Shown in pieces: positions 2,263-62,069 of a stretch of 64,000 nucleotides of DNA (position 1 is its first letter; each line of letters begins with the position of its first letter). Below the pieces are notes generated by a model, which was given only the letters and a program-made list of their open reading frames with translations, did no database searches and was not told the DNA's origin. A program made the translations under genes and the position numbers. Source of the DNA: Candidatus Tectimicrobiota bacterium (lineage in GTDB: Bacteria > JACPUC01); NCBI GenBank assembly GCA_016192455.1, contig JACPUC010000002.1, forward strand, positions 1 through 64,000, given 5' to 3'.

Positions 2263-4584
2263 TCAGCCTCCTTTTCCGAGCCGCTGCCGCAGCGCCACCT
2301 CGAGCTCACGTGCCGCCGCCACCGCGGGGTCGAGCCAGCGCGCCACCGCGAGCTCCGCGGCGGCCTTGCTCAGGTGGTTCAGATTCAGGTAGGCGAGACC
2401 GAGGTTGGTATGCGCCACGGGATTCCCCGGGTTCTGCCGCGCCACGGTGCGAAACTCCGCCAGCGCCGCCTCGAATGCGCCTAGTCGCAGGTAGGCAACG
2501 CCGAGATTGGCGCGCGCGTCGAGCGACGACGGATCGGCGCGCAGGGCGATCTGAAAATCGTTCACCGCCTTCTCGACGAGCCCCCGCGTCAGGTAGGCAA
2601 CGCCGCGGTAGGTGCGGGCCGGCGCGAAGGTCGGACGCAGCCGCAGGGCGCGAAGTGTTTCCAGGATCGCCCTGTCGATCTCCCTGCGCGGCAGCCTGGT
2701 TTTTGCCAGATTGGTGTAGGCCACGGCATTGCTTTCATGGAGAGACAAGGACCGGAGACTCGCCGCCGCCGATTTGTCCCCTCGGCCAAGGCCCAGATAG
2801 GCTGCCGCAAGGTACGTGTGCCCGTTGGCGTTTCCCGGTTGGTCGTGCAGCCCCTTCCGCAGCTCCGGCAGCGCCCGCGCGAGTTCTCCCTGCCGCACCA
2901 GGGCGACGCCGAGGTTCACTTGCGCCGCCGGGTAGAGGGGCCTGGCGCGCAGCGCGGCGCGCAGGTGCGGCTCGGCCTTCTTCGGAAGGTTGAGCTGCAG
3001 GTAGGCCACGGCGAGGTTGTTGGAGGCTCCTCGCGTCTGAGGGTTGATCTGCAGTGCCGTGAGGATCTCGGCGGCAGCCTTGGTGGAGAGGTGGGTCTGC
3101 AGGTACGCCGTGGCGAGGGTAATGTGGGCTCCGGTGTTCTGAGGCTGCGTGGCGAGGAAGCGCCGCAAGGCGGCAACTGCCTTCTCCGGCTGCCGCCGTT
3201 TCAGGTACGCCATGGCAAGGTTGGTCACCGCCTGTTCGAGCTGGACGGGGGATGAAAGGGCAAGCTTGTTTTCGGCGACGGCGCGATCGACCAACCCGGC
3301 ATCCCGATAGGCGCGCCCCATGTTGATATGGGGGATCGGCGTCCGGGGTGATTTCCGGGTCGTGTCCCGCCAGAGGGTGGCGCTGTCGTGCCAGATGCCG
3401 ATGCGGCTGATCGTCAGGACAGCCAGCAGGGCAAGGCCGAGGCAGCCAAGGAGAGCGACGCGCCTCTCGAGCTTCGCGGCGCGCTGCCGCCACGCCGCCG
3501 CCAGGTGAGAGGCCACGGATGCTCCGAGGATCGCCACCCCCACCGCCGGCAGGTAGACGAAGCGCTCCGCCAGGAGGATCGGAATCGGCACCAGGTTTAG
3601 CACCGGCAGCAGCGCGAGGAAAAACCACGCCAGACCGAAGACCGCCGTGCGGTTCGCCCGCAGCAGCGCTCTGATGAGGAGGAGGATTGCGGCCAGCCCG
3701 AGGAGCGCGATGAGGAACCGCACCTGCAGGACGCTGCCGAGGGCGCGGGCATCGTAGTAGGCGTTGAGCTGCACCGGCAGGAGGAGCTTGGCGGGGTAGG
3801 TGACGAGGAGCACCGGCACGGTGATGAGGGTGGCGCCCAGGCTGCCGCCGTAGTAGGAGGGGAGCACTGCCCCCGCCGCCGAGTGCGACAGCATCGTGGT
3901 GACCGAGGCCGCCCCCGCCAGCACGAAGAACGGGGCGGTCAAGCCGACCCGGGGCCGCTTCAGCAGCAGATGGTACGCCACCAGGATGAGCGGCAGGGGG
4001 ACGGCGGTCGATTTTGACAGCAAGGCAAGCGTCGCGAGGAGAAGGGCGGCGGCGTAGCACCCACGCCGCAGCGGCGGCTGCCGCGTCGCGCTCTCATAGG
4101 CGAGGAACGCTGCGAGCAGGAACGCCTGGGAGAGGACGGTCTTGCGCTCGGCGATCCAGGCCACCGATTCCACCTGCATGGGGTGGAGACCGAACCAGAG
4201 CGCCCCGAGCAGGGCGATGCCCCCGGCGCCGACGAGCCGCGCCAGCAGGACGTAGACCAACGCGGCATCGAAACTGTGCAGGAGCACGCTGGTGAGGTGG
4301 TAGCCGAACGGGGCGAACCCCCAGAGCAGCCGATCGGGAAAGAATGAGAGGAGATGGACGGGGAGGTACTCGGTGAAGTAGAACGAGGTGAAGACCGCCT
4401 TCAGGCTGGCGAGGCTGGGGACTCCCAGGAAGGGGTTCTCGGTGACGTAGACCTCGTCATCCCAGTTGGTGAACCCGTTGCCCAGGCTGCGCAGGTAGAC
4501 CAGGAGCGTCAGGGCGAAGACCAGCCCGGCGAGGAGCCACAGCCCTCGTGCATCCCGTCGCCAGCCAGGCTCAACGTTCTCCAT
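2263..4584 (-). CDS. Polytopic membrane protein with TPR tail (TMTC/GT-C-like)
   Basis: Large integral membrane protein of 773 residues. Residues 1 to about 410 contain some ten hydrophobic segments and, after the first, a lumenal-type loop with the acidic motif NWDDEVYV that marks dolichol/undecaprenyl-phosphate-sugar-dependent GT-C glycosyltransferases. From about 420 to 760 come roughly ten tetratricopeptide repeats (recurrent A-x-x-NLAxAYL). The arrangement is that of TMTC-type O-mannosyltransferases and many uncharacterised bacterial homologues. A role in glycosylating envelope proteins or lipids is an inference. A GAGGGG site precedes the ATG. It is divergent from the transketolase gene and convergent with the nitrile-hydratase-like genes. 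Confidence 0.75.
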   Translation of the reverse strand: MENVEPGWRRDARGLWLLAGLVFALTLLVYLRSLGNGFTNWDDEVYVTENPFLGVPSLASLKAVFTSFYFTEYLPVHLLSFFPDRLLWGFAPFGYHLTSVLLHSFDAALVYVLLARLVGAGGIALLGALWFGLHPMQVESVAWIAERKTVLSQAFLLAAFLAYESATRQPPLRRGCYAAALLLATLALLSKSTAVPLPLILVAYHLLLKRPRVGLTAPFFVLAGAASVTTMLSHSAAGAVLPSYYGGSLGATLITVPVLLVTYPAKLLLPVQLNAYYDARALGSVLQVRFLIALLGLAAILLLIRALLRANRTAVFGLAWFFLALLPVLNLVPIPILLAERFVYLPAVGVAILGASVASHLAAAWRQRAAKLERRVALLGCLGLALLAVLTISRIGIWHDSATLWRDTTRKSPRTPIPHINMGRAYRDAGLVDRAVAENKLALSSPVQLEQAVTNLAMAYLKRRQPEKAVAALRRFLATQPQNTGAHITLATAYLQTHLSTKAAAEILTALQINPQTRGASNNLAVAYLQLNLPKKAEPHLRAALRARPLYPAAQVNLGVALVRQGELARALPELRKGLHDQPGNANGHTYLAAAYLGLGRGDKSAAASLRSLSLHESNAVAYTNLAKTRLPRREIDRAILETLRALRLRPTFAPARTYRGVAYLTRGLVEKAVNDFQIALRADPSSLDARANLGVAYLRLGAFEAALAEFRTVARQNPGNPVAHTNLGLAYLNLNHLSKAAAELAVARWLDPAVAAARELEVALRQRLGKGG

Positions 4585-5124
4585 GACTTGCCCCTCGCCA
4601 GCTTGCCCGATGCGCCGGCAGAGCGGTTCCCGCGGCTGGCGCGATGCAGCGCCGGGCGAGAGCCGCCGCCTCGTCCCGCGCTCGGTCAGCTCTCAGCATA
4701 CCGAGAGGGCGCCCTCTCGAGCAATCCCCTTCCTGGTGTTTGGAAAGGAGCTGATGCGGGAGAGTTCCTTGGCGGTCCATCTTCCCGCAGCGCGACGGGC
4801 GTCGGCAGCGCCGGAAGCAGCTTTACAGGGACGCTTTGACGAAGGCGCCTCGGTTGTCCATTCTTGGGAAGAGAAGGGGGGCGGGATTCGTTTCCCAGGT
4901 GGCGCCTGCGCCGGCGGAGGCCAGCCGACGAACGCGCGCGCTCCACGAGAAGGCCGAGGCGGGGATCGGGGGAGTTCCCCATTCTCGGAAGTGCGTTGCC
5001 TCGATCTGAGTCACTCTGCTAGAGTGCGAAAAGGTGTCGCCGCGGAGAAGTGGGGGGCCGCGGCCTCCGGATGTGCCATGGACGGCTGATGAGGTGGGCG
5101 CCGGGTTGTGATCGGAGAGGCGGC
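4585..5124. other. Divergent intergenic region
   Basis: About 540 bases separate the TPR membrane protein and transketolase genes. Reading frames here look like chance GC-rich frames. Apart from the candidate promoter at 4996 I see nothing supportable. Confidence 0.4.
4996..5025 (+). promoter_or_regulatory. Candidate sigma-70-type promoter for the sugar-phosphate cluster
   Basis: TTGCCT, an 18-base spacer and TAGAGT preceded by TGC (extended -10). Each hexamer matches the consensus at 4 of 6 positions. It lies 100 bases upstream of the transketolase start. Confidence 0.35.
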
Positions 5125-7143
5125 GTGGCGATAGCAAAGCAACTGGACATCGATGAGCTGTGCGTGACGACGATCCGCATGTTGGCGGTGGATTGCGTGC
5201 AGCAGGCGAGGTCGGGGCACCCCGGTGCGCCGCTCGGGCTGGCGCCGGCGGCCTACGTCCTCTGGGACCGCTTCCTCAAGCACCATCCGGCCAACCCCCG
5301 CTGGTGTGACCGCGACCGTTTCGTCCTCTCCGCCGGGCACGCGTCGGCCCTGCTCTACGCCCTCCTGCACCTCTACGGCTACGACATCTCTCTCGACGAC
5401 CTGCGCGCCTTCCGCCAATGGGGCAGCCCCTGCGCCGGCCATCCCGAGTATGACCTGGCCCGCGGCATCGAGACCACCACGGGGCCGCTCGGCCAGGGCT
5501 TCGGCAACGCCGTCGGCTTCGCCCTCGCCGAGGCGCACCTAGCCGCCCACTTCAATCGCCCCGGCCATGCCATCGTGGATCACTTCACCTACTGCCTGTG
5601 CAGCGACGGCGACATGATGGAGGGGGTCGCCTCCGAGACCGCCTCGCTGGCCGGGCATCTCGGCCTCGGCAAACTCATCGCCCTCTACGACGATAACCAT
5701 ATCTCCATCGAAGGCCGCACCGAGCTGGCGTTCAGCGAGGACGTAGGTGGCCGCTTCTCGGCCTATGGCTGGCACGTGCAGAAAGCGGACGGGCATGACC
5801 GCGGCGCCATCGCGGCGGCGATCGAGGCGGCGCGCGCGGCGACGGACCGTCCCTCCCTCGTCATCCTCGCCACCAACATCGGCTACGGCAGCCCCGTGCA
5901 GGATACCGCCAAGGCCCACGGCGAGCCGATGAGCGAAGCGGACCACTTGGAGACCAAGCGCTTTTACGGCTGGCCCCTCGATCAACCCTTCTTTCGCCCG
6001 GCGGAGGCTCTGGCCCACATGCGCCGGGCCGATCAGCGCGGCGCGGCCGCCGAGGCGGACTGGCAGCGGCGCTTCGACGCTTACCAGCGCTGGCACCCCG
6101 AGCTCGCCGCCGACTTCCTCCGGGGCATGGCGCACGAGCTGCCCGACGGCTGGGACGACGACCTCCCCATTTTCTCGCCGACGGAGAAGCCCCTGGCGAC
6201 GCGGGTCTCGGCGGGCGCCGCCCTGAACAGCTTCGGCGCCAGGCTCTCTGGGTACCTCATCGGCGGCTCGGCGGACCTGGCGCCCTCCACGAAGACGCTC
6301 CTCGACGGCCAGCCGGGCATCCGGCGCCATGAGTACGGCGGCGCAAACCTCCACTTCGGCGTGCGCGAGCACGGCATGGGGACGATTTGCAACGGCCTGG
6401 CGCTGCACGGCGGGGTGCGCCCGTACTGCTCGACCTTCCTGGTCTTCTCCGACTACATGCGGCCGTCGATCCGCCTGGCGGCGCTCATGCGGGCGCCGGT
6501 CATCTACGTCTTCACCCATGACAGCATCGGCCTGGGCGAGGATGGGCCGACCCACCAGCCGGTGGAGCACCTGGCCGCCTTGCGCGCCATTCCCCGCCTC
6601 GTCGTGCTGCGTCCGGCCGACGCCAACGAGGCGGCGTGGGCCTGGCATACGGCGCTCCAGCACCGCGCCGGTCCGGTCGCCCTCGTCCTTTCCCGGCAAA
6701 ACCTGCCGACCCTGGACCGCACGCGCCTCGCCGCCGCGCCGAATGTCGCCCGGGGCGCCTACGTCCTGGCCGAGGCGGAGGGGGGCGCGCCGAAGCTGCT
6801 GCTGCTCGCCAGCGGCTCGGAGGTGATCCTGGCCTTGCAAGCCCGGGAGAAGCTGCAGGCCGACGGCGTGCCGACGCGCGTCATCAGCATGCCGAGCTGG
6901 GAGCTCTTCGAGGCGCAGCCGCGGGCCTACCGCGACGAGGTGCTGCCGCCGCGCGTCTCCGCCCGCATCGCCATCGAGGCCGGCGTGTCGCTGGGCTGGG
7001 AGCGCTACGTCGGCGCGCGCGGCGCCACCATCACGCACGATGAGTTCGGCGCCTCGGCGCCCGCCGCCGTGGCGTTCGAGAAGTTCGGCTTCAGCGTGGC
7101 GCGGCTGCTGTCCGAAGCGCAGAGATTGCTGCGGCAGGCTTGA
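5125..7143 (+). CDS. tkt: Transketolase
   Basis: Thiamine-diphosphate enzyme that moves two-carbon units between ketose and aldose phosphates in the pentose phosphate pathway. The 672-residue length is normal. It has the N-terminal HPGAPLG motif, the substrate loop ending GHPE, the TPP/Mg signature [12 protein letters not shown] followed by a DDN metal ligand, and the pyrimidine domain with FGVREHGMG and [19 protein letters not shown] take the GTG at 5125 (GGAGAGG just upstream); the open frame extends 25 poorly coding codons further. It is the first gene of a co-directional run of sugar-phosphate genes to 14351, so it probably supplies the non-oxidative branch together with the fused transaldolase. 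Confidence 0.95.
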
Positions 7144-35997: not shown

Positions 35998-37949
35998 CTT
36001 CCGGCGCGACGGCGGAGCTGAAGGAGAAAATCGATCGCCTGCCGATGACGCCGGGGGTCTACTTCATGCTCGACCACGCCGGCAAAGTGCTCTACGTCGG
36101 CAAGGCGGTGAACCTGCGCAGCCGCGTGCGCTCCTACTTCCGCAACGGCGGGGATGGCCGCGTCCACATCCGCTTCCTGGTGCCGAAGGTGGTGGATGTC
36201 CGGGTCATCGCTACGGATACCGAGACGGAGGCGCTCATCCTTGAGAACAACCTCATCAAGGAGCACCGGCCGCGCTACAACGTCATGTTCCGCGACGACA
36301 AGACGTACGTCAGCCTGAAGCTCAACGTGCGCGACCGCTGGCCGCGGCTGACGGTGGTGCGGCGCCATGGCCGCGACGAGCACCTCTACTTCGGCCCCTA
36401 CGCCTCGGCCCAGGCGGTGCGGCAGACGCTGCACGCCATCCAGCGCATCTTCCCCATCCGCTCCTGCACCGACAGCGTCTTCAAGAACCGCACCCGCCCC
36501 TGTCTCTACCACCAGATCGGCCAGTGCGTGGCGCCCTGCGTCGAGGGCTACACGACGGAGGCGGCGTACCGCGAGCTCGTCGAGCAGGTCATCCTCTTCC
36601 TGCGCGGGCGCAGCGAGGATCTCATCGAGGTGCTGCGCCGCCGCATGCAGGACGAGTCCGAGGCGCTGCGCTTCGAGGAGGCGGGGCGAATCCACCGTCG
36701 CATCCAGGCCATCGCGCACACCGTCGAGCGCCAGAAGATCACCTCGCAGGTGCGCGATGATCAGGACATCTACGGCCTCTACCGCGAAGGCGAGGTCATC
36801 GAGTTGCAGTGCCTGACGGTGCGCGGCGGCAAGCTTTTGGGCGGCAGGAACCGCAGCTTCAGTGGCCAGCTCCTGCCGAGCGAGGAGCTGCTGAGCTCCT
36901 ACCTGAACCAGAGCTACGCCGCCGAAGGGGTCATCCCTCCCGAAATCCTCGTGCCGCTGGAGCTGGAGGACGCGGCGACGTTGGGGGCACTCTTGAGCGA
37001 GCGCAGCGGCCGGCGCGTCGTCATCCTGCGACCGCAGCGCGGCGAGAAGCGGCAGCTCGTCGACATGGCCTGCCGCAACGCCCGGGTGGCCTTCGAGCAG
37101 CGCCAGGTGAAGGCGGGGGACGATGCGGCCACCCTCGCCCAGGTGCAGAGCAAGCTCCACCTCCGCGCCCTCCCCCGCAAGATCGAGTGCTTCGACATCT
37201 CGAACATCCAGGGGACGAACGCGGTCGGCTCGATGGTGCGCTTCGTCAACGGCGCGCCGGACAAGAAGGGCTACCGCACCTACCGCGTACGCACCGTCGA
37301 GGGGGCGAACGATTTCGCCATGATGGCGGAGGTGCTGGGAAGGCGCTACCGGCGGGCGCTCGAGGAGGACGATCTGCCCGATCTCCTCCTCGTCGACGGC
37401 GGCAAGGGGCAGCTCGGCATGGCCGTCGAGGTGATGCGTCAGCTCGGGATCAGCAGCGTCGATCTCGCTGGTATCGCCAAGAGCCGCCTGCGGGAGGGGG
37501 TGATCGCCGGCCGGCGCGAACGCTCCGAGGAGCGCATTTTCTTGGTCGGGCGCGTCAACCCCGTCACCTTCAACCCCAACTCCTCGGCGCTCTTCCTGCT
37601 GCAGCGCGTGCGCGACGAGGCGCACCGCTTCGCCATCACCGCCCACCGCAAGCTGCGCCGGCGCCAGTCCCTCACCTCGGCTCTCGAGGAGATTCCCGGC
37701 ATCGGCGCGAAGCGCAAGCAGGCGCTGCTGCGCGCCTTCGGCAGCCTGCGCGGCGTGACGGCGGCGACGATCGAGCAGCTCGCCGCCGTTCCCGGCATGA
37801 CGAGCGCCCTGTCCGAGGAGGTGCACCGCTCCCTGGCGCCCCTCAGCCCTGCCGCCGCGGCGGCGCCTCTCCCTGCCGCGGCGACTCCTCCCGCCGAGAC
37901 GCCGTCGGCTGAGCGCCTTCCTGCCGCGGCGCCTGGGGCGACAGGCTGA
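35994..37949 (+). CDS. uvrC: UvrABC system protein C with Ala/Pro-rich tail
   Basis: Makes both incisions in nucleotide excision repair. The 651-residue protein begins at a GTG overlapping the uvrB stop (GTGA). It has the GIY-YIG domain ([26 protein letters not shown]), cysteines of the Fe-S site ([23 protein letters not shown]), a UVR motif, the RNase H-like domain ([26 protein letters not shown]) and tandem helix-hairpin-helix motifs. About 35 low-complexity Ala/Pro residues follow. They lie in the stretch antisense to the end of the next gene. Confidence 0.97.
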
Positions 37950-40530
37950 TCGTGCCCCGCTCGCCGTCCACCTCGAGGGGATCGCCGTTGCGCAGCAGTT
38001 CCGTTGCGCGCCGCACGCCGACGACCATCGGCAGGCCTAGCTCGCGCGCCATGATCGCCCCGTGGCTCAGCAGGCCGCCGGCCTCGGCAACCACGGCGGC
38101 CACGTGGGCAAAGTAGGGTGTCCAGCTTGGGTCGATGTGCGGTGCCACCAGCACGTCTCCGGGCCGCACCTCCTCGAGCTCGTCCCAGCGCCGGACCACC
38201 CGCGCCACGCCGCCGCGCCGCCCGCGGCTGACGCCGATGCCGGAGAGACGGGCGCCGGCCGCGGAATTCAGCAGGCTCGTCCGCGGCTCGGCGCCGCTTT
38301 CGCCCGCGCCTGGTGTGGCTGCGGCCGCGCCCTCGGGACGGATGAAGTAGGGCGGTCGGCGGGCGCTCGCCGTGGCGAAGGCCACGCGTCGGGCGGCGAT
38401 GGTCGCCGCGAGCTCCGGCGCCGCCTGGCTGGCGAGTCCGGATGCGGCGTGCAGCGCCTCGGCTTCGTCGAGGTGCAGGAAGAAGACGTCGTCAGGCTGC
38501 CGCAGGGCACCGCGGGCGACGAGTCCGCGCCCCAGATCGAGGAGGTCCTGCCGCAGGAGGTCGAGGCGCCGGTCGAGGGCGGCGCGCAGGTCTTCACGCA
38601 GGGCGAGGTAGCGCCGCGTCCACCCCAAGAGGCGGCGGAACAGCCAGGCGAGCAGGGCGCGTTTCGGCCAGGGGGCCTGCTCGCAGAGGCGCCGCTCGAC
38701 GAGCCGCGCGACGGGCGCGCCGCCGCCCGCCGTCTGACCCGCGGGCGTCTTCCTCTCGCCCCGCAGCGCCCGCAGGGAATTGACGGTCTCCCAGAGGAGG
38801 GCCGGCTGCTCGTGCCAGCGAGGTTGCGCCAAGTCGCGGTGGGGGGAGCGGCTCCCGTGGCGGGCCAGGTAGTCCTCCACGGCCGTTGCGAGCACAGGCT
38901 TTGACTCCGGCGGCGGTGCGCTGGGCGACCCCGGCGTCGCGCCAAGCGCAGGCAAGGTTCGTCCGGCGCTGTCGGCGACGAGATCAAGGAGGCCGGCGAG
39001 GTCGCGGTTGGCGCGCAGGGTGGCGTGCTCCGGCAGGCGTTCGATGAGGGCCAGGACGAGGGCGGCATCGCCGAGGCGGCTGGTGAGCGCCTTCAGGACC
39101 CAGGTGGCGAGCATGGCATGGAGGTACGCCCATTGGCTTACCTCTTGCAGCGTTGCGATGGTTTCGATGCGCGCCTCGATTCCCGCCGCGCCGCGACGCG
39201 CCTCGCGGACCGCCCGTTGCAGCCGGCGCGTGCGCTCGGTGTCGGCGCTCAGCCAGCTTCGGATGCGGCGATGGGCGGTAAGGAAGCGGGCGTAGGGCTG
39301 GAGGAGCTGCAGGAGCGCGAGGCCGAGGCCGGCCCGCAGCAGGCTCCCCCACGGCGGCCTTGGCGGGTGCGGCCTCGCTGGGCCGGTTGTCGTGGCGGCG
39401 GCGGCCTGGGGGGATGGCATGATGCCCCGCACCTCGTCCAGTTCGAGCAGCGGGAAGAAGCCGCGGCGCACCTCGGCGATGAGGCGGCAGTCGAGGTAGA
39501 GGTAGTGGTCGAAGACGCGCAGCGCCGGGCGGCGCGACAGACGCCGCAGGCCGAGGAGGCGCAGCGCCGTGGGGAAGGTGAAGCGCGGCGCCAGGCGGTC
39601 GACGATGATCGAGGCGGTCAGCGGCGTCATCGGCTCGTCCCATAATTCCTCGCAGAGGGCGCGCGACCAGACGCCGCGCAGCGCGGCAGGCGGGGGGGGC
39701 GCCGGCCGCGGTGACCCCGCCGCGGCGGCCTGCAGCGCCAGGGGGGAGAGGTCAGCCGTGATGGGACGCGCCTGCAGGAACCAGAAGAGGCGGCTGTCGA
39801 AGGCCCACTCGATATCCTGTGGGCGGCCGAAGGAGGCTTCCACGTCGAGGCAGCGGCGCAGGAAGGTCCGGAAGCGGGCTGCGGAGCCGGGCGGGCGGGA
39901 GGCGGCGAGCAGGCGCGCGAGGCGCCGCGCCCCTGGCGCGTGCAGCGCCTGGTGCGCGACGGCGGTGCGCTGGGGAAGACCGCGCCCGGAGGTCACGCTG
40001 CTCTCGCTCTCCGCCGACCACTCGGCCAGGAGCAGGGAGCCGGCGCTGACCACCGCCTCTGGCGTCGTTCGCGTGAAGACCACCCCGGCGGCGATGGCGG
40101 CGATCATTGGCTGCACGAGGACGGCGCCGGGCGCGGCGTCATGCCATGGCGGCGGCGCGGCGGGCTGCTGCATGGCGGTGAGGCAGGCGATGATCGCCCG
40201 CGGCACCTCGGCGGCGGAGACATGGAGGTAGGTCTGGAACTCGCCCGCGTGGCTGGCATGGGGAGCGTCCTCGAGGCGGGACGACGAGCGCACCGCGAAG
40301 GTCCCGTCGCCATGCCGCGCCAGGAACCGCTGCAGCATGGGAAGCGCAGCGCAGGCCGCCTCGATCTCCTCCGGCGTGAACTTGGCCTGCTCCGCTCCGG
40401 ACTGCATGACTACCAGCGTCGGCGGCACCAAGAATCCCGCCGCGGCGAGGCGCGCCAAGGCCGCCGCCTTGTTCCCGGCGCTGCGGCGCTGCTCCGAGCC
40501 GAGCGCTCTCAGCGGGATAACGTGCCACAT
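37843..40530 (-). CDS. PEP synthase/rifampin-phosphotransferase-like dikinase
   Basis: Multi-domain phosphotransferase of 895 residues. An N-terminal ATP-grasp domain (about 1-320; GNKAAALARL, FAVRSSSRLEDAPHASHAGEF) is followed by a long Arg/Leu-rich helical substrate domain and a C-terminal mobile His domain with GGLLSHGAIMARELGLP, His823 being the phosphate carrier. There is no PEP-binding TIM barrel. Rifampin phosphotransferases have this same three-part order, a similar size and a His near 825, so antibiotic or other small-molecule phosphorylation is possible; the substrate is unproven. The ATG at 40530 is the first start consistent with the family. The last 36 codons overlap the end of uvrC. 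Confidence 0.8.
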   Translation of the reverse strand: MWHVIPLRALGSEQRRSAGNKAAALARLAAAGFLVPPTLVVMQSGAEQAKFTPEEIEAACAALPMLQRFLARHGDGTFAVRSSSRLEDAPHASHAGEFQTYLHVSAAEVPRAIIACLTAMQQPAAPPPWHDAAPGAVLVQPMIAAIAAGVVFTRTTPEAVVSAGSLLLAEWSAESESSVTSGRGLPQRTAVAHQALHAPGARRLARLLAASRPPGSAARFRTFLRRCLDVEASFGRPQDIEWAFDSRLFWFLQARPITADLSPLALQAAAAGSPRPAPPPPAALRGVWSRALCEELWDEPMTPLTASIIVDRLAPRFTFPTALRLLGLRRLSRRPALRVFDHYLYLDCRLIAEVRRGFFPLLELDEVRGIMPSPQAAAATTTGPARPHPPRPPWGSLLRAGLGLALLQLLQPYARFLTAHRRIRSWLSADTERTRRLQRAVREARRGAAGIEARIETIATLQEVSQWAYLHAMLATWVLKALTSRLGDAALVLALIERLPEHATLRANRDLAGLLDLVADSAGRTLPALGATPGSPSAPPPESKPVLATAVEDYLARHGSRSPHRDLAQPRWHEQPALLWETVNSLRALRGERKTPAGQTAGGGAPVARLVERRLCEQAPWPKRALLAWLFRRLLGWTRRYLALREDLRAALDRRLDLLRQDLLDLGRGLVARGALRQPDDVFFLHLDEAEALHAASGLASQAAPELAATIAARRVAFATASARRPPYFIRPEGAAAATPGAGESGAEPRTSLLNSAAGARLSGIGVSRGRRGGVARVVRRWDELEEVRPGDVLVAPHIDPSWTPYFAHVAAVVAEAGGLLSHGAIMARELGLPMVVGVRRATELLRNGDPLEVDGERGTISLSPQAPRQEGAQPTASRREESPRQGEAPPRRQG

Positions 40531-40735
40531 GACGACACCGAGTGGGGAAAGCAGGCGCTCCCCTGGAGCACCCCGGCGTGGAGCGCAAGGGTGCGCCTCA
40601 CATCGCGGCGCTGCGTCCTCCATGGTACACCAACCGCCGAGCCAGAGGCAGCCCGTGGGCTCGGCTGCAACGACAAAAGCTCCAGGCCGCACCCGACCTG
40701 GAGCTCTTGGAGGAAGACCTGCTGTTGGAGGCCCG

Positions 40736-41200
40736 TTAGAGCTTCTTGATCTCCGCGATCAGCTCGTTGTTCTCGGGGATTCCCTTCTCCCAAACCTTGC
40801 TGAAGCGGATCGTGCCCGCCTTGTCGATAAGGAAGCAGGCTCGCTTCGAGAAGCCCTTCTCGTTGAAGACGCCGAAGGTCTGCGCGGCCTTGCCGTGCGG
40901 GTAGAAGTCCGACAGCATGGGGAAGGAGATGCCTCCCAGCTTCTCGGCGAACACCTTGTTGCTGAAGACGCTGTCACAACTGATACTCACGACCTGAGTA
41001 TTGAGCTCTTCGAAGCGCTTGCGGTCGGCCTCGAAGTTCTTCAGCTCATTCTCTCACCCAGGTGTGAAGGCGAGGGGGTAGAAAGCGACGAGGACATTCT
41101 TCTTGCCGCGGTACTCAGCCAGCGAGTGGTTCTTGCCGAACTCGATCGCAAGCTCGACCGAGGGGGCTTTGGTACCGGGCTGTAAGGGTTGATCAGCCAT
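40736..41200 (-). CDS. Selenocysteine peroxiredoxin (in-frame TGA at 41054-41056)
   Basis: Thiol/selenol peroxidase of the AhpC/TSA-BCP-AhpE type, 154 residues. The frame from the ATG at 41200 (AAGGAGG 7 bases upstream) gives PGTKAPSVELAIEFG, then FYPLAFTPG, an in-frame TGA at codon 49, then ENELKNFEADR. The TGA falls exactly on the peroxidatic cysteine of the FTPxC motif, so it is read as Sec49. Downstream, SISCDSVFSNKVFAEKLGG, FPMLSDFYPHG and ACFLIDKAGTIRF are normal, and the Cys of SISCDS or ACFLID may resolve. A 9-bp hairpin follows the TGA. Cytoplasmic peroxide detoxification is the expected role. A naive call yields only residues after GTG 40990. Confidence 0.9.
41008..41036 (-). promoter_or_regulatory. 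Candidate bacterial SECIS hairpin of the selenoperoxiredoxin
   Basis: On the minus strand, starting 17 bases after the TGA, CTTCGAGGC pairs with GCTTCGAAG (nine pairs, one G-U) around an 11-base loop beginning CG. Its distance from the UGA and a G among the first two loop bases fit the bacterial SECIS pattern recognised by SelB. Confidence 0.6.
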
Positions 41201-41535
41201 AGCGAGCCTCCTTTACAGCGGATCATCGGACGGGCGCGCGGAATGCGCCCTGCTTCGACTGGAGAGGTAATGCGTCATCAGTATGGTGCAAGGGAGCGGG
41301 ACGCGCAACGCCTCTTTGTGGAGCATCCCGTGCAGAGTGGCGGGGCTGCGCGGCGGGCTTCCGCGCGGACGGGCTCGGCATGGGGGGCGCGCGGAGGCAG
41401 ACTGGAGCGCACCGCAAGAAGGGCTCCCAGAACCCCTCGCCGCGCGCTATAACCCTCGTGAGGGGGTCAGGAAGACGCTACCTACGGCGGTGGAGCGAGC
41501 TGCTCGTCGCGCAAGCCACTGCCCTGGATGTCTCG

Positions 41536-56055: not shown

Positions 56056-57402
56056 ATGGTCGAGCCATTGCGTGTCGTGCACTACCTCAATCAGTTCTTC
56101 GGGCAGATCGGCGGCGAGGAGAAGGCGGACGCAGCGCCGCGCCTGCACCAGGGCCCGCTCGGACCGGGGCTGCTCCTCCAGGAACGGCTTGGAGAGCGGG
56201 GCAGGGTGGTCGCCACCGTCATCTGCGGCGACAATTACGCGGCGGAGCGTCAGGAGACCGCCGGCGAGGTGCTGGCCCTGCTGCGGGGGCTGGAGTTCGA
56301 CGCCTTTGTGGCGGGTCCCGCGTTCAACGCCGGGCGGTACGGCCTGGCCTGCGGCAGCCTCTGCGCGGCGGTGCGGGAGGCGCGCGGGGTGCCCTGCGTG
56401 ACCGGCATGTTTGCCGAGAACCCAGCGGTGGAGCAGTTCCGCCGCCGCGCCTACATCGTGCGCAGCGGCTCCACGGCGAGGGAGATGGCGCAGGCCATGG
56501 AGGCGGTGACGGCGCTGCTCCTGAAGCTCGCCGCGGCGCCGGACGAGACCGGGGTGCAGGCTGGCGGCCTCGCCGTCTCGCCGGAAGCTGATGGCTACTT
56601 TCCGCAGGGGCGCACGGTGAACGTCGTCGGCGATCGCCTTGCCGCCGCGCGCGCCGTGGAGATGCTCCTCGCCAGAGTGCAGGGGCGGCCGTTCCACACC
56701 GAGATCCCCCTGCCCGCGCCGGGGCGCGTGCCGCCGGCGCCGGCGCTGCGGGAACTGCGCGGCGCCTGTCTGGCGCTGGTGACGGAGGGAGGGCTGGTGC
56801 CGGCGGGCAACCCCGATGGCCTCGTGGGGGCGCGGGCGAGCAGCTATCGCGCTTACAGCATCGCGGGGCTCGGGTCGCTCCGGGCCGGGGCCTACGAGTC
56901 GGTGCACCGCGGCTTCGACACCTCGGCGGTGAACGCCGATCCGAACCGCATCGTGCCGCTCGACGCGGCGCGCCAGCTCGAAGCCGAGGGGGTGTTCGGC
57001 AAGCTCCACGAGACCTACTATGTCACCTCCGGCTGCGCCACCTGGATCGAGAGCAGTCAGGCGATGGCCGCCGGCATTGCCGCGGAGCTGCGCCGAAACG
57101 GCGTGGACGGAGTCATCCTCACCGCGACGTGAGGCACCGGGGTGCGCTGCGGGGCAGCGATGGCACGTGAGCTGGAGCGGCAGGGCATTCCCACGGCGCT
57201 CGTCGCCACCCTCGTCTCCACGGCGCTGACGGTGGGGGCGAACCGCATCGTTGTGGGGACCGGCATCCAGCATCCGCTCGGCAACCCGAAGCTCAGCGCC
57301 GAGGAGGAGCGCCGCCAGCGCCGCAGGCTCCTGGAGTGCGCGCTCCAGAGCCTGACGACGGACCTCCAGGAACAACGGGTCTTCGAGGCCGCGGCGGCCT
57401 GA
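56056..57402 (+). CDS. GrdB-like selenoprotein (in-frame TGA at 57130-57132)
   Basis: Homologue of the substrate-specific selenoprotein B of glycine/sarcosine/betaine reductase. From the ATG at 56056 (AAGGGG 5 bases upstream) the protein begins RVVHYLNQFFGQIGGEEKA and contains VVATVICGDNY. At codon 359 a TGA is followed in the same frame by GTGVRCGAAMARELERQGIP, then ALTVGANRIVVGTGIQHPLGNPKLS and a normal C-terminus. GrdB has STUGTCTRCGATM here, so the TGA is Sec359 and the total is 448 residues (about 436 in the family, Sec near 350). The second Cys of the UGTCTRC motif is Gly; RCG is kept. A SECIS-like hairpin follows. In glycine reductase the selenol forms a link with the substrate; the substrate here is unknown. 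Confidence 0.93.
57145..57159 (+). promoter_or_regulatory. SECIS-like hairpin of the GrdB-like gene
   Basis: Twelve bases after the TGA, CGCTGC and its perfect complement GCAGCG flank the loop GGG. The loop begins 18 bases after the UGA with G at its first positions, as expected for bacterial SECIS elements read by SelB. Confidence 0.65.
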
Positions 57403-61462: not shown

Positions 61463-61469
61463 TCTGCAC

Positions 61470-62069
61470 ATGGTCCAGCCCTCTGCCGTGGAAGGCGCCT
61501 TTGCGGCGCCGCTCCGCCTCCTGGCGCCGGACGACGTCGGCGAAGCGGAAGCGCTGCCGCTTGCGGCGCGACCGGCGTCGTTCGAGGGGAGGGTGCTTGG
61601 CATCCTCGACAACCGCAAGCACAACTCCGAGCGCCTGCTCCTCGAAGTGGGAGAGCTGCTGCGCCGGCAGTACCGCCTGCGCGATGTCCGCCTGCACAAG
61701 AAGCCGAGCTTCAACGTTGAGGTGAGCCCGGAGCTGCTCCAGGCCATGGTGCAGGAGTGCGACCTGGTGGTCACCGGCATCGGCGACTGAGGGTCGTGCA
61801 GTTCGAGCAGTGTGCTCGACGCCATCCTCTTCGAGCAGGCCGGGGTGCCAAGCGCGGCGATCGTCACCGACGCCTTCGTCCGCACCGGGGCCGCCATTGC
61901 GGCGGCGTGGGGCATGCCCGATTACGGCTTCGCCGTGACCCATCATCCGATCGTGATTCAATCGACTGCGGAACTGGCGCGCTGGGCAACCGAGGTGGTG
62001 CCGCAGGTGCGGGCGATTCTCTCCGGGGAGGCCGCGTCGGGCGGGCGCGAAGGCAACCGAAGGGAGTAG
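61470..62069 (+). CDS. UGSC-motif selenoprotein (in-frame TGA at 61788-61790)
   Basis: A 199-residue protein in which the TGA at codon 107 lies within one continuous frame: VSPELLQAMVQECDLVVTGIGD, Sec107, then GSCSSSVLDAILFEQAGVPSAAIVTDAF. This gives the U-G-S-C motif of the UGSC family of (seleno)proteins, in which Cys or Sec starts the motif. The N-terminal part has ILDNRKHNSERLL and KKPSFNVEVS. Sec and Cys110 form a UxxC redox pair, so a thiol/selenol reductase role is likely; the substrate is unknown. A perfect hairpin follows the TGA. The ATG overlaps no other gene and is 7 bases after the partner gene. Confidence 0.92.
61803..61819 (+). promoter_or_regulatory. SECIS-like hairpin of the UGSC gene
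   Basis: Twelve bases after the TGA, TCGAGCA and its perfect complement TGCTCGA flank the loop GTG. The loop starts 19 bases after the UGA. The geometry is almost the same as in the GrdB-like gene. Confidence 0.7.

Follow-up and report, generated by a model that had tools for sequence, protein, structure and literature searches.

Peroxiredoxins that carry selenocysteine (Sec, U) in a TxxU motif (Prx, PF00578) are an established selenoprotein family (PMC13188914), with 253 sequences on record (PMC2398784). The Sec-Prx family, which takes in marine metagenome Prx and PrxU (NF040737), has Sec at the peroxidatic position of a PxxxTxxU motif. AhpE of M. tuberculosis (Rv2238c) is a one-Cys peroxiredoxin. 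The Prx-like UxxC selenoproteins, which are thiol:disulfide oxidoreductases, also belong to PF00578 and carry Sec at an N-terminal redox position.

The gene described here lies in a 64,000-nucleotide stretch of a Candidatus Tectimicrobiota genome (the window), and it is a fresh example of the known Sec-peroxiredoxin kind, from a bacterium with heavy selenium use. Its product resembles the Sec-Prx family in motif, Sec position and PF00578 domain, but compared with PrxU it is shorter, one-Sec and AhpE-like, and scores well below the cut-off of the PrxU model. With M. tuberculosis AhpE it has in common a similar length, the motif and the catalytic Arg; AhpE has Cys, however, whereas the window protein and its close family have Sec throughout. 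Prx-like proteins, several of which are encoded in the same genome, are UxxC or UxxU, while the U of the window protein stands alone, without a CxxC partner. Our literature search, which had partial coverage, returned no paper naming a Sec AhpE-like subgroup.

The reading frame and its active site

The features of the locus are as follows.

41207..41213, minus strand: ribosome-binding site AAGGAGG, 6 nt 5' of the ATG (from sequence)
40736..41200, minus strand: AhpE-type selenocysteine peroxiredoxin gene, 154 aa plus TAA stop (from frame, Pfam, homology and fold)
41054..41056, minus strand: in-frame TGA for the predicted Sec49, which holds the peroxidatic position of PxxxTxxU (from frame and orthologues)
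41008..41036, minus strand: conserved hairpin, candidate bacterial SECIS, 20-48 nt beyond the UGA's first base
40736..40990, minus strand: 84-aa open reading frame with a GTG start at 40990, the remnant under the standard code

With TGA translated as U, positions 41200 to 40736 give a single frame from ATG to TAA, beginning MADQPLQPGTKAPSVELAIEFGKNHSLAEYRGKKNVLVAFYPLAFTPGUENELKNF. Its sole in-frame TGA is codon 49, in the context YPLAFTPGUENEL, and coding potential on both sides of it is among the best in the 524 kb scanned. The sequence immediately 5' of the ATG is AAAGGAGG. A sequence-only reading of the window had placed the gene at 40736-41200, which is correct, although it left out the strand (minus); its claims that a TGA at 41054 replaces the Cys of FTPxC, that a strong AAGGAGG site lies upstream and that ordinary annotation would keep only the open reading frame from the GTG at 40990 all hold. 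Upstream of the gene, a search for sigma-70 promoter-like sites gave none. The downstream neighbour on the same strand (37846-40692, minus) is PPDK/PEP-synthase-like (PF01326, PF00391), with no evident connection in function to the peroxiredoxin.

The Pfam AhpC-TSA domain (PF00578) spans the TGA, covering residues 8-133 with an E-value of 3.3e-31 and 108 bits against a cut-off of 26. M. tuberculosis AhpE is both the closest solved relative by sequence (E 3.5e-26) and the top match for the predicted fold; the structure prediction (pLDDT 74.6, weak around residues 45-47) served for fold only. Among NCBIfam models none scored at or above its cut-off against the window protein, PrxU NF040737 giving 68.2 bits against 270. 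Judged by these sequence comparisons, the protein is assignable to a shorter, one-Sec, AhpE-like subgroup within PF00578. Because ordinary annotation would shorten the gene to the 84-aa fragment and no NCBIfam model matches at its cut-off, many environmental genomes probably carry members of this AhpE-like Sec clade under faulty annotation.

The active site, PxxxTxxU plus a catalytic Arg, is complete (P42, T46, U49 and R120). An alignment had been proposed as a check, and in the one made here these four residues are invariant across the window protein and six orthologues with 51-55% identity to it; Arg120 aligns with an Arg in M. tuberculosis AhpE. Cys75 and Cys122 of the window protein are absent from the orthologues, leaving no conserved resolving Cys, which suggests a one-Sec type that would need an outside thiol.

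We are highly confident that this is a functional selenoprotein gene in which the UGA at codon 49 would be read as Sec to yield an AhpE-type one-Sec peroxiredoxin; insertion, activity and reductant we infer from sequence. SelB and Sec-tRNA(Sec) would decode the UGA, aided by the hairpin just 3' of it, giving a 154-aa product. Sec49, positioned by Pro42, Thr46 and Arg120, would attack hydroperoxides and so become a selenenic acid; reduction by an outside thiol may follow. The best-surviving alternative is that Sec insertion yields a thiol-disulphide or signalling protein for which peroxidase activity is not the main role. The lack of a conserved resolving Cys would fit such a protein, but the full peroxiredoxin active site is retained and the closest solved relatives are one-Cys peroxiredoxins, and we consider a non-peroxidase role improbable.

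Conservation of the TGA, the downstream hairpin and the Sec machinery

A scan of genome contigs found TGA at the matching codon in all six orthologues, whose hosts are environmental genomes labelled 'Deltaproteobacteria' and 'Proteobacteria'. Within the order of one of these hosts (G062), 28 of 35 genomes gave a strong match. Each of the best 24 of those matches has exactly one TGA, and FTGGU could be read directly in 23, the last (L101) lying at a contig end. The 23 close orthologues that were read through come from separate metagenome-assembled genomes, and all have TGA and none Cys. The residue aligned to U49 is U in the orthologues and Cys in more distant homologues, and the same order also has a further Sec group, WTPTU, at greater distance. 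By tree, the window gene falls with the all-Sec set at only fair support (94/64), and across the wider family at least four switches between Sec and Cys are required. As judged from sequence, the AhpE-like subgroup appears to be Sec in every close member seen.

These orthologues bear directly on the idea that the TGA arose through faulty sequencing or assembly, or through a nonsense mutation of recent date, in an ordinary Cys peroxiredoxin whose codon was TGC or TGT. The assembly is fragmented, at 88% completeness and 2.3% contamination, which lends this idea some footing. However, that codon is TGA in every close orthologue read, and these come from separate assemblies; 8 of the 13 AhpC-TSA genes in the genome carry a TGA, each at an active-site position, and the genome encodes Sec machinery. 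A sequencing error at 41054, which had been named as a finding that would overturn the Sec reading, is excluded because independent assemblies carry the same TGA, and the orthologues refute the wider explanation.

Bacterial SECIS elements are expected where the conserved hairpin lies. The search for such an element, another check proposed beforehand, found this SECIS-like hairpin at +20 to +48 after the UGA, retained across the orthologue family. In the predicted fold its outer stem extends to 41047-41003. Family statistics, in which related rows are not independent, give a mean z of -1.54 against synonymous-codon resampling that keeps the protein, compared with -0.73 to +0.41 at five offsets elsewhere in these genes, and pair 21/47 is CG in 9, TA in 8 and TG in 7 sequences and never CA. 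The window copy taken alone is a moderate hairpin (z -2.0, with 8 of 200 shuffles as good), some orthologues have weak values near -0.2, and the stem follows in part from the Phe/Leu-Glu ... Phe-Glu codons. An Rfam scan of the window returned nothing at gathering score, since the diversity of bacterial SECIS elements exceeds what Rfam captures. We regard the hairpin, a stem-loop just 3' of the UGA, as a candidate SECIS with predicted SelB binding.

The genome contains the machinery whose absence would also have spoken against Sec. A tRNA-Sec with anticodon TCA scores 75.5 bits on contig C8 and is also called as tRNA-SeC by ARAGORN. SelB (366 bits) and SelA (596 bits) adjoin on contig C23, and SelD (389 bits, contig C3) has an in-frame TGA of its own within VAGUAAK.

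Paralogues and other peroxide defence

Read singly, the TGA-bearing AhpC-TSA genes have U at a redox or active-site position in each case: FTPGU in the window gene, and FUGDC, WUKSC, WUPYC (twice), WUPKU, WUQSC and TUPPYR in the others. The WUPKU protein, an AhpC-TSA member with two in-frame TGAs, is a double-Sec UxxU form (L026, G000:C9:76107-76466). The TUPPYR protein is deiodinase-like (L028, 1192-1998, plus strand; PF00837, E 2.8e-14). Of the members with Cys, those inspected resemble ResA/TlpA (WCxxC) or SCO, a small match at C31:275262 lying outside this reading.

With the window protein as query, its own genome gave only two further matches, both with TGA. The sequence-only reading had also suggested looking for a Cys paralogue, and no Cys version of the window peroxiredoxin was found in the 88% complete assembly. 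A search limited to catalase, KatG and glutathione peroxidase found neither of the first two, and no glutathione peroxidase above its cut-off. At this completeness, the absence of catalase, KatG and a Cys peroxiredoxin is provisional. Each peroxiredoxin-like gene found is Sec, and it is a tentative possibility, which we would not favour, that peroxide defence here is wholly selenium-dependent, without catalase, KatG or glutathione peroxidase above cut-off, in a bacterium whose selenoproteome is among the larger bacterial ones. The finding suggests a lineage rich in Sec and poor in, or devoid of, Cys peroxiredoxins, in which the reason for using selenium in peroxide reduction and the response to selenium scarcity become open to test.

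The wider selenoproteome

Family searches together with 800 kb of sampled stretches gave a direct count of at least 18 selenoprotein genes in the genome. The stretches were picked regardless of TGA and scanned for in-frame TGAs using codon usage and coding sequence on both sides. Seven of its hits were convincing, four of them in genes for CMD/AhpD-like proteins and the others in genes for GrdA, UGSC and a sulphur-transport protein. About a dozen other cases with high scores were set aside, since a new start follows the TGA and consecutive genes share the frame (for example L032 minus 4894, L110 minus 4320 and L149 minus 3977). Extrapolation gives perhaps about 40 selenoprotein genes per genome, with a Poisson range of roughly 16 to 80. 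Published upper marks for selenoproteome size are 57 and 63 genes (PMC13188914), and a sequenced species has 46 (PMC12013277); by these marks the genome is Sec-rich, and a record is not established.

The window itself holds two further selenoprotein genes.

56056-57399, plus strand: GrdB-family selenoprotein (glycine/betaine/sarcosine/D-proline reductase selenoprotein B), TGA at 57130
61464-62066, plus strand: UGSC-family selenoprotein, TGA at 61788 (PF24696, E 8.2e-54; NF041046 above cut-off)

The GrdB-family gene matches PF07355 (E 2.2e-126) and TIGR01918 (464 bits), with U in ILTATUGTGVRC. General reassignment of UGA in this organism, for instance to Trp or Gly, without Sec recoding would put in-frame TGAs in several genes, as is seen, but these TGAs fall at catalytic Cys/Sec positions and none at Trp or Gly positions, interrupted genes are few in the 900 kb scanned, and tRNA-Sec (anticodon TCA), SelA, SelB and SelD are all present, so that reassignment has next to no probability beside Sec insertion.

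The relatives compared with this genome share with it only the domain. On the minus strand of L146, positions 4014-6986 hold a single frame with a pair of CMD/AhpD-like stretches; the first has CTFU, and the second has CPSL and lacks Sec at the corresponding place. L119 carries another UGSC gene, at 2328 on the minus strand.
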